Origin: Actinomycetes bacterium
Lineage (GTDB): Bacteria; Actinomycetota; Thermoleophilia; Gaiellales; F1-60-MAGs149
Length of the DNA: 61,566 nucleotides
Reading direction: 5' to 3'
Assembly (NCBI GenBank): GCA_025360225.1
Contig: JANYCN010000010.1
Coordinates: forward strand, 1 to 61,566
The notes under the pieces were generated by a model that made no database searches, was not told where the DNA came from, and saw nothing but the letters and a program-made list of their open reading frames with translations. This document shows positions 1 to 61,566 of the stretch, in pieces. Numbering within the stretch: position 1 is the first letter of the stretch; the number at the start of each line of letters is the position of its first letter. The translations under genes were made by a program, and so were the position numbers.

Positions 1-53
1 CGCTCGCTCCAGACACCCAATGACCATGCCATTTGACAATCAGACCACTAGCT
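1..53 (+). repeat. Right end of dispersed inverted-repeat element (edge copy)
   Basis: These 53 bases are identical to 43891-43943, the right end of the complete element at 43623-43942. They include the terminal repeat ending CAATCAGACCACTAGC. The window opens inside this copy, so its left part is not visible. It is non-coding. Strand is given relative to the complete copy. Confidence 0.85.
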
Positions 54-338
54 GACAAGCGACAGCGAGGGAGCTTGCTGATCGCGGGCGTGCTGGATAG
101 CACGCCCGCTCGCACGCGTGTCAAGGCGTTCGCCTTGACACGCTACGCGACCGTGTGTCAAGGCCGGTCGAAAATTGTCCCCCTTCTGCCGGTTGAGTTC
201 CGACCCCGCTCCGTGCCGGGTGCGTGCGCAGTGGAGCCCGTAGGGCAGAGCGGAGCGCGTGCTCGTCACGACTTGTCGGGCGAGGTTTCAGACGCCGCTC
301 CGCAGCGCTCGAAAGCCACGCACTTTCGAGACGGTGCA
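54..338. repeat. Second repeat segment with two perfect hairpins
   Basis: Directly abutting the edge copy is a segment in the opposite orientation. It carries two perfect palindromes: 84-109 (11-base arms, GCGGGCGTGCT, 4-base loop) and 116-143 (13-base arms, GCGTGTCAAGGCG, 2-base loop). Both hairpins recur at 43798-43857 and 61464-61523, and in degraded form at 27726-27786. Bases 144-338 hold no gene I can support. Around 280-320 they show weak similarity to 27825-27862. The head-to-head arrangement suggests nested insertion or rearrangement of copies. Confidence 0.75.
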
Positions 339-1490
339 CTAGCGCGAACGGGCGACGAGCTCCTCAAACAGGTCAGACCAGAGGGTGATGACGCGCCCGG
401 GCGTGTACGTCGAGGCAACGCCTTCTCTGGCGGCGGCGGCACGTGTCCTCGCCTGTTCCGGGTCGTCAGCGACGCGTTCGAGGGCTGCCGCGAGCGCTGC
501 AGGATCCTGCGGTGGCACGAGCAGGGCGCACTCCTCGTCCGGGACGACCTCAGCGATCCCGCCGACGTTGGTCGAGACGATCGGACAGCCTGCGAGCGCG
601 GCCTCGTGGATCACCAGGGGCGTTCCCTCGTAGTCGGAGCTGAGCGCGAAGGCATCGAATGCCAGCAGCAGCTCCGGAACGTCGCGCCGACGGCCGACGA
701 GCGTCAGCGCGCTCTCGATCCCGAGCTCGCTGGCGAGCAACCTGAGCCGTCCCTCCTCCGGGCCGTCACCGACGATCACCAGGCGGGCGTCGGGGTGTGT
801 CGCCCGGAACAGGGCAAACGCGCGCAGGAGCACATCGAGCGCTTTCTGCGGCCGGAGGTAGGCGACCGTACCCACCGTGAACGCGGTTCCAAGGCCGAGC
901 TCTCCACGGACGGCGGCGCGGTCGCGGGTCGGCACCGGTCGCGGCGTCATCGCGGCGATCGGCATCACCCGCGTCTTCGCCGCCGGCACGCCGACGACGT
1001 CAACGAGGCTGCGTCGGTCAGCCTCCGAGACCGCGACGAACGCGGTCGCCCGCCGGGCGGTGTGATGTCGGTCGATCAGGATGCGCCGGCGGTCGCCCGT
1101 GAACGACCACGTGTGCTCCGTCGCGATGAGGACGGGCACGCGGGCCAGCGGAGCAATCAGCGCGGCCCAGAGGTTGGAGCCGAACTTGTGCGAGTTCACG
1201 ACGTCGACCCGGTTCTCGCGCAGGTACCGCCAGAGCGGTAACCACGCACGGACGTCCAGCTTGCTGCCCGCTCCCCGCCCGAGGCGCACGAGCTCGACGC
1301 CGTGCTTCTCGAGCAGCGCGACGACGTCCGGGTCGTCGCCGTAGCGCGTCGCGCAGACGGCGACGGCGAACCGTTGCCGGTCGAGCCCGGTCGCCAGACC
1401 GATCGCGTACCCCTCGGCGCCGCCGCCGCTGAGCTGGTCGAGCAGCAACAGGACCCTGATGCGCGCGTCGGTCGTGCCTTCGCGAGCCAC
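339..1490 (-). CDS. Glycosyltransferase, family GT4 (GT-B fold)
   Basis: A 383-residue retaining glycosyltransferase, probably cytosolic or membrane-associated, that moves a nucleotide-sugar residue onto a surface glycan or lipid. The N-terminal acceptor domain (about 10-180) opens with a hydrophobic strand followed by SGGGAEGY, the glycine-rich loop typical of GT4. The donor domain (about 200-370) has GTVAYLRPQKALDVLL, VIVGDGPEEGRL and the E-x7-E motif (E288 and E296). It starts at a GTG only 9 bases after the upstream beta-helix gene stops, so the two are probably co-transcribed. Acceptor and sugar cannot be read from the sequence. Confidence 0.85.
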   Translation of the reverse strand: MAREGTTDARIRVLLLLDQLSGGGAEGYAIGLATGLDRQRFAVAVCATRYGDDPDVVALLEKHGVELVRLGRGAGSKLDVRAWLPLWRYLRENRVDVVNSHKFGSNLWAALIAPLARVPVLIATEHTWSFTGDRRRILIDRHHTARRATAFVAVSEADRRSLVDVVGVPAAKTRVMPIAAMTPRPVPTRDRAAVRGELGLGTAFTVGTVAYLRPQKALDVLLRAFALFRATHPDARLVIVGDGPEEGRLRLLASELGIESALTLVGRRRDVPELLLAFDAFALSSDYEGTPLVIHEAALAGCPIVSTNVGGIAEVVPDEECALLVPPQDPAALAAALERVADDPEQARTRAAAAREGVASTYTPGRVITLWSDLFEELVARSR

Positions 1491-7395: not shown

Positions 7396-7660
7396 GCCCT
7401 GCGCTCGTTGTTCGTGGTCGCCACGACGCGTCCCTACGCGTGCAGCCGTCGACGTTGTGCCCGCCGACAAGAGATGGGCGCGCGGTTGCATGATCCTCAG
7501 CTCGGGCGGTGTCGGGGCGTGGTCTTCGCGGGAACGTCGCTCGCTGCTTGCGCTTGCCCCAGCAACCCCTGCGCGACGCGCAACGCCCCCGCTCGCTTCA
7601 GACACCCGGTGACGCCGCTCTTTGACAATCAGACCACTGGTCGGTGCATCAATCAGGCGC
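7396..7660 (+). repeat. Degenerate copy of the dispersed repeat, hairpins deleted
   Basis: Bases 7519-7642 match the right half of the complete element (43760-43942). They share CTTCGCGGGAACGTCG, CCCTGCGCGACGCGCAACG and the terminal TTTGACAATCAGACCACT at 7621-7638. The two central hairpins (about 85 bases in the complete copy) are replaced by roughly 10 bases. No matching left terminal repeat is evident, so this copy is truncated. Bases 7396-7518 hold nothing else I recognise. Strand is relative to the complete copy. Confidence 0.8.
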
Positions 7661-27607: not shown

Positions 27608-27717
27608 CGTCTCATCATCGTCCCTCCTAGACTCGACTAGCAGGGTAGTGTCGCGCGTCCGATGGTCGTTCACGGCTGTCGGCGAGAGCGAGTGTGGCCA
27701 GTGACGGCGACCGAGCT

Positions 27718-27890
27718 TGCTGATCGCGGGCGTGCTGGACCGCAACGCCCGCTCGCACGCGTGTCAAGGCGTTCGCCTTGGCACGCTCCGTGAGGGAGCC
27801 GGAACGCAGCCCGCCCGGCCGCGCTCGGGCGGGGTTCCAGACGACGCTTCGCAGCCCCGCGAAGGTCGACGAGTATCGGACGCGCGCACG
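27718..27890 (-). repeat. Degraded copy of the dispersed hairpin repeat
   Basis: Bases 27718-27786 match 78-143 (CTTGCTGATCGCGGGCGTGCTGG and on). The first hairpin is mutated, with GACCGCAA in the loop side. The second (27759-27786) keeps 12 of 13 pairs. Bases 27825-27862 resemble 282-318. No intact terminal repeats are seen. The whole 27608-27913 stretch holds no gene I can support. Strand is relative to the complete copy. Confidence 0.7.
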
Positions 27891-27913
27891 AGCGTCGCGT
27901 CGTGGGGAAGAAG

Positions 27914-43622: not shown

Positions 43623-43942
43623 GCTAGTGGTCTGATTGTGAGATGGCGTGGTCATCCGACTGCCTGGATCGTCCTGCGCTTGTCGGCTCTGCCACCCGTC
43701 GGGTGGCTACGCCGCTCAGCTCCGGCGACCGCGATCCGGCCCGCTCTGCGTGCCGGATCGTGGGCTTCGCGGGAACGTCGCGCGCCGCTTGCACTTAGCG
43801 TGTCAAGGCGAACCGCCTTGACACGCGTGCGAGCGGGCGTGCTACCAGCACGCCCGCGATCGGCAAGCCCTGCGCGACGCGCAACGCTCCCGCTCGCTCC
43901 AGACACCCAATGACCATGCCATTTGACAATCAGACCACTAGC
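43623..43942 (+). mobile_element. Complete MITE-like element with 32-base terminal inverted repeats
   Basis: The termini 43623-43654 and 43911-43942 are inverted repeats matching at 29 of 32 positions; the outer 17 bases (GCTAGTGGTCTGATTGT) match perfectly. Inside are at least four hairpins: 43691-43707, 43732-43760, 43798-43826 and 43833-43857. It encodes no protein. CTAG at each end leaves TA or CTAG as a possible target duplication, as in IS630-type miniature elements (inference). Related copies lie at 1-143, 7519-7642, 27718-27890 and 61382-61566. It separates the urease-like genes from agmatine deiminase. Confidence 0.85.
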
Positions 43943-44021
43943 TAGCTCGATCAGGTGCCCGCCGCTTGGCTCAGGCCCGCCCCCCGCCGCCGCGAGCTGG
44001 CTGCACTACCCTTCGGTGACG

Positions 44022-61381: not shown

Positions 61382-61566
61382 GGTGGTGCGATTGTCAAAG
61401 GGCATCGTCATCGGGTGTCTGGAGCGAGCGGGAGCGTTGCGCGTCGCGCAGGGCTTGCTGATCGCGGGCGTGCTGGATAGCACGCCCGCTCGCACGCGTG
61501 TCAAGGCGAAGGCCTTGACACGCTAGGTGCAAGCGGCGCACGATGTTCCTGCGAAGCCCACGTTCC
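61382..61566 (-). repeat. Edge copy of the dispersed hairpin repeat
   Basis: This is the reverse complement of the right part of the complete element (43756-43942). It begins at a diverged terminal repeat (GTGGTGCGATTGTCAAAG) and includes both perfect hairpins at 61464-61489 and 61496-61523. The window ends inside it. Bases 61333-61381 hold nothing recognisable. Confidence 0.85.

Follow-up and report, generated by a model that had tools for sequence, protein, structure and literature searches.

A CTAG-flanked MITE family with a stop-codon niche in an actinobacterial genome

IS630 itself prefers the TA in CTAG, and REPIN/REP repeats are defined by paired short palindromes together with a resident TnpA-REP (Y1) transposase. 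The use of CTAG by MITEs is not new either. The nearest precedent for the element described here, in both target and size class, is MITEPsy1 of Pseudomonas syringae, a 100-bp element with ends GGAAGGTCTG... that is present in six copies in 1448A, occurs in other transposons as well as intergenically, and has been proposed to derive from ISPsy2 of the IS5 family, an assignment in which the family is doubtful (PMC3189936). Elements of the IS630/Tc1-mariner type, such as ISY100, insert almost exclusively into TA, which is duplicated, and their non-autonomous derivatives are common (PMC2170065). Members of the IS701 family are summarized in a passage of PMC8024623, citing Siguier 2015, as having direct repeats of 4–5 bp. 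As with MITEPsy1, the element that we report is short, non-coding, and bounded by terminal inverted repeats; it differs in its length of about 320 bp, in its ends CTAGTGGTCTGATTGT, in its copy number, which is well over a hundred in one actinobacterial genome, and in the location of many copies exactly at stop codons. The kind, a MITE, is known; the family is new, and it has an unusually clear stop-codon niche. A first-pass annotation of this DNA had recognized no named family, and we likewise found none; a literature search, with most subscription journals outside its reach, returned no report of a MITE or IS family concentrated at stop codons or of a MITE linked to IS701.

The window, by which we mean the whole stretch of 61,566 nucleotides analyzed, is one complete contig (C46) of a 3.24 Mb source genome in 89 contigs (G000), the single genome by which its genus is represented. 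Within it, a complete copy of 318 bp, or 310 bp without the CTAG at either end, is flanked by ureC (urease alpha), which runs to 43607, and by an agmatine-deiminase-like gene (Pfam PAD_porph). The first-pass annotation had called this element at 43623–43942, which is accurate except for one flanking base too many on each side (exact limits in Table 1). Its description of 32-bp terminal inverted repeats with CTAG at both ends and no transposase inside agrees with the sequence, and several internal hairpins lie between the repeats. The whole element folds with a predicted energy of −208 kcal/mol (z = −15.3 on the plus strand and −14.4 on the minus strand), and no Rfam family matches it. A conserved overlapping protein frame, which had been named as an argument against a MITE, was looked for in the alignment of copies; none was found, and the alignment exhibits gaps and substitutions instead. 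This particular copy is intergenic and is not at a stop codon, the ureC stop being 16 bp upstream.

Table 1. Coordinates of the MITE copies, their parts, and the related repeats within the window
Feature	Position	Strand	Basis or detail
Complete MITE copy	43624..43941	+	same boundaries in 60 complete copies; genome search
Left terminal inverted repeat, CTAGTGGTCTGATTGTGAGATGGCGTGGTCAT	43624..43655	+	sequence; terminus search, 242 vs control 0
Right terminal inverted repeat, inverted reading CTAGTGGTCTGATTGTCAAATGGCATGGTCAT	43910..43941	-	29/32 identical to left
Left-end CTAG, inferred target-site copy	43624..43627	.	frame test; 4-bp YTAR flanks of IS701 relatives
Right-end CTAG	43938..43941	.	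second CTAG abuts at 43942-43945
Twin-hairpin block, insert relative to the 253-262-bp form	43798..43857	+	arms 43798-43810/43814-43826 and 43833-43843/43847-43857
Right end of another copy, cut by contig start	1..51	+	100% identity, element positions 269-320
Family-B repeat, outer end CTAGTGCACCGTCTCG, own twin-hairpin block 73-145	48..342	-	locus alignment; sequence
Degenerate right half of a copy, end ...GACCACTGG	7509..7641	+	blastn, 85-87% identity
Twin-hairpin block with imperfect arms, inside a family-B repeat (about 27640-27900), outside any MITE	27715..27787	-	
Copy including the twin-hairpin block, cut by contig end	61380..61566	-	91% identity, element positions 133-316

A search of the source genome with the terminus TMGTGGTSTGATTGT, allowing at most one mismatch, gives 242 matches spread over most contigs, and the reversed-pattern control gives 0. 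Because of this difference and the z-scores of the fold, the element is not attributable to chance. Another 398 genomes of the class were searched for this terminus without a match. When the whole element was used as the query, 123 matching stretches were returned, many of them overlapping inverted hits; the first search of the genome scored 40 places, the best of which has 97% identity over the full length. Complete copies were delimited by paired termini within 1.74 of the 3.24 Mb, read in stretches, which yielded 60 copies of 75–338 bp with size peaks at 310–319, 250–259, and 70–79 bp. All 60 end alike, in keeping with the original reading of a MITE with fixed boundaries. The repeat is found at 53 of the 111 contig ends examined, i.e., about half. 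Adjacent elements use one common CTAG at several loci (L011, L094, and L155), and in the window the copy at the contig start and the neighboring family-B repeat have the CTAG at 48–51 in common. At one further locus (L059 6936–8034, G000:C47), a gene that reads in translation as a winged-helix type lies between two MITE ends; it is possibly cargo, or the ends may represent two separate insertions.

Outside the source genome, a scan of the genome collection with the core found a match in VFJZ01 (Actinomycetota bacterium Bin_62_12, G015) alone, the source genome itself possibly not being visible in that scan. This sister-genus genome carries a diverged family with CTAG ends and other termini. 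The two families have a common core (CTGGAGCGAGCGGGAG..GTCGCGCAGGGCTTGC and CGCAGGACGATCCAGG), and the relative also sits at stop codons, e.g., that of a citrate synthase gene (L150). They differ in the terminal repeat, which is CTAGTGGTTCGACACGGAAATGGC (also given as CTAGTGGTTCGACACGG) in the relative and CTAGTGGTCTGATTGTGAAATGGC in the MITE, and, unlike the 318-bp MITE, those copies of the relative that were read have no twin-hairpin block.

CTAG is rare in this GC-rich genome, with a density of 0.33 per kb in the sampled DNA, and its TAG is often a stop. We scored the frame at the CTAG for flanks that are coding-like by GC3 and open into the element, the frames being GC3-based calls. Of 46 cases in which a gene reads into a CTAG end, 40 have the TAG as the stop of that gene (frames 40:3:3), as opposed to 127 (stop frame):161:122 at CTAGs without a MITE (Fisher p = 1e-13). 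Stop-codon CTAGs in the sampled DNA therefore comprise 40 with a copy and 127 without, and in two copies (L139 10825–10943; L076 2030–2259) convergent genes stop in both CTAGs. Comparison with NCBIfam models shows that genes terminating in the element have a complete C-terminus: IF-2 reaches 585/587, DisA 356/357, thiol peroxidase (Tpx) 165/167, and ketol-acid reductoisomerase (IlvC) 333/337. The idea that the element truncates genes and merely lends them a stop is rejected because these genes are complete. The excess of stop frames, the completeness of the genes, and the CTAGs common to adjacent elements are all expected if the element inserts at CTAG, with one CTAG remaining on either side, and if intragenic insertions are lost. 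As to the proposed check for a TA or CTAG duplication, CTAG is indeed present on both sides, and no longer duplication was found (up to 10 bp, at several offsets); since CTAG is its own reverse complement, 4-bp and 2-bp (TA) duplications leave the same flanks. The frame test supports CTAG as the target, and the CTAGs of the MITE would probably be a 4-bp target duplication.

The reading that we consider probable is that of a lineage-specific MITE family, mobilized in trans, most likely by an IS701 transposase, that inserts at CTAG and whose surviving copies are intergenic or at stops. The terminal repeats would be bound and cut by a DDE transposase that is encoded outside the element and most likely belongs to the IS701 family; this enzyme would insert the element into CTAG, with a CTAG left on each side. 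Selection would then purge insertions inside genes, which we infer to be the fate of intragenic copies, and the survivors would be those in intergenic CTAGs and in CTAGs whose TAG is a stop codon, the latter because the duplicated site would restore the stop on either side. A short target motif can thus make insertion harmless, and the counts given above put numbers to this: when the site is duplicated, the stop codon is preserved. It is conceivable, and we offer this only tentatively, that stop codons are the main safe harbor of the element, that housekeeping genes such as infB, ilvC, and disA owe to it a functional TAG stop and a strong hairpin at the 3′ end, and that some copies perhaps serve the host as bidirectional transcription ends. 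As a separate observation, further CTAGs crowd the MITE ends, with 19 found within 14 bp compared with 0.7 expected, for example CTAGCTAG at 43938–43945; these are possibly traces of repeated insertion or excision.

About a quarter of the ends in the 60 complete copies depart from CTAG, 17 left ends being CTCG and 13 right ends CGAG. These variants avoid positions that serve as stop codons: a stop-frame gene is present at 40 of 116 CTAG ends and at 2 of 35 CTCG ends (p = 0.0005). The mirror-image arrangement of CTCG and CGAG fits a terminal repeat and tells against a direct duplication, in which CTCG would stand at either end. It is plausible that the CTCG variant passes from copy to copy through gene conversion at ends that no gene needs as its stop.

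The first-pass annotation had suggested movement in trans, which is supported; the element itself has no transposase. No pair of termini 0.4–4.5 kb apart encloses a transposase in the 1.74 Mb, and the search for an enzyme gene with matching termini was therefore negative there; a 1.1-kb interval on C47 was rejected as an autonomous copy, having an ordinary gene inside. The source genome does contain an IS701-type transposase (PF13546 at C35), which has 71% identity over 199 aa to one in the sister genus. The reading frame on C35, the one long IS701 frame in this genome, has a stop in it and runs off the contig. The left ends of the IS701 copies at C22, C25, and C35 read CTAG followed by TAGTGCTTTGTTGG (the start is also given as CTAG followed by TAGTGCTTTGT), and the copy at C25 starts at the CTAG where the upstream reading frame stops. 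Relatives in other actinobacteria (43–44% identity) are flanked by CTAG/CTAG (L175 and L176) or TTAG/TTAG (L174); the direct orientation of the latter indicates a 4-bp YTAR duplication for the IS701 relatives. These relatives begin with T-A-G... and resemble the MITE in target and flanks; for the MITE itself CTAG alone was seen, which is compatible with a YTAR target. Ends of the IS701 type are found on the MITE core in a few chimeric copies. In chimera L156 the 3′ end of an IS701 element is joined to a MITE core, L157 has an IS701-type end on a MITE core, and L158 has one MITE end and one of the IS701 type; L155 holds a 44-bp element with hybrid ends intermediate between the two types. The differences are that the MITE encodes nothing and that its main terminus is distinct: TGGTCTGATTGTG is loosely like the IS701 terminus TAGTGCTTTGTTG of the same genome, with about half of the positions differing, and no IS701 copy was found that is both intact and bounded by exactly the MITE termini (e.g., TGGTCTGATTGTGA). 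Given how loose this similarity is, the assignment of the mover to an IS701-family transposase, made from sequence comparison, is likely, not proven. It gives an orphan MITE a testable link to the IS701 family.

The same flanks could have been produced by an IS630/Tc1-type transposase inserting into the TA of CTAG and duplicating TA alone, in which case the MITE would begin with the G of CTAG. Insertion and duplication of this kind are known from ISY100 (PMC2170065) and are compatible with CTAG, the flanks cannot tell TA from CTAG duplication, and a MITE copy in the sister genus has an IS630-type transposase gene as its immediate neighbor (L037, G015:C34). That element, however, starts with TGTCCTGTCGC, unlike the MITE termini; no DDE_3 domain was detected in the source genome, as against three in G015, and the chimeras bear IS701 ends and none of the IS630 type. 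The IS630 element is accordingly rejected as the partner, its ends being different and its domain undetected in G000, and we regard an IS630-type mover as unlikely. Taken by itself, the position of the L037 element, which abuts the CTAG end of a MITE relative, suggests that other elements seeking CTAG use MITE ends as targets. A mover of the IS5 family, as proposed for MITEPsy1 with duplication of CTAG or YTAA, has in its favor the nearest precedent in the literature for the target (PMC3189936) and the IS5-like transposase fragments present in the source genome. We consider it improbable, since the IS5-like element at C26 (L102 1–616) is nested in a MITE copy and has an end, GAGTCCGTTTC, that is unrelated to the MITE termini, and no chimeras with IS5 ends were seen. 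Its location inside a MITE copy also led us to reject that element as the partner.

The perfect twin hairpins that drew the attention of the first-pass annotation consist of GCGTGTCAAGGCG-AAC-CGCCTTGACACGC (43798–43826) and GCGGGCGTGCT-ACC-AGCACGCCCGC (43833–43857). Their arms are indeed perfect at three places in the window (at 43.8 kb, 73–145, and 61449–61528), the fourth copy being imperfect (Table 1), and the loops do differ among copies (AAC, CTTC, and GAAG). The view of the pair as the conserved heart of the family does not hold: it is an extra block of ∼70 bp present in 24 of the 60 complete copies, and the 253–262-bp form is colinear with the 318-bp form, with a short hairpin loop in place of the block. 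Recent spread and selection on structure had both been put forward for the perfect arms. The folding and the analysis of compensatory changes called for at that point were carried out on 22 aligned copies, in which both arms of both hairpins are nearly invariant. Compensatory change is seen in 4 of 105 predicted pairs, almost none, and three of the four are in the terminal repeats; the covariation term is +1.22, slightly unfavorable. We therefore favor recent spread as the source of the perfect arms over structural selection, which these pairs do not demonstrate. The element could instead be of the REP/REPIN type, or a functional RNA hairpin maintained for its structure, and not derive from a transposon. 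This would suit the very stable fold of each strand (z about −15) and the many copies at gene 3′ ends, but it is very improbable given the fixed ends, long 32-bp inverted repeats where REPIN/REP has short palindromes, the target motif, a size series of 75–338 bp with unchanged ends, the empty Rfam search, the 4 of 105 pairs, and the fact that the inverted repeats alone account for much of the fold.

Beyond the MITE family, the twin-hairpin block has a second home. At least eight loci carry it outside the MITE, as part of what we call family B, a CTAG-ended hairpin-array repeat defined from an alignment of eight loci, whose better-preserved copies start with CTAGTGCACCGTCTCG and end with ...CGGTACACTAG. 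The case also shows hairpin blocks swapped between CTAG-ended repeat families. Further family-B loci are present at L094 2000–2250, L100 6100–6350, and L125 10400–10650, the last of which starts with CTAGCGTCCCGGGTCGG. Among loci L001–L025, most copies have the loop CTTC, and L010 has GAAG; the two are reverse complements, as though the hairpin had been inverted in place.
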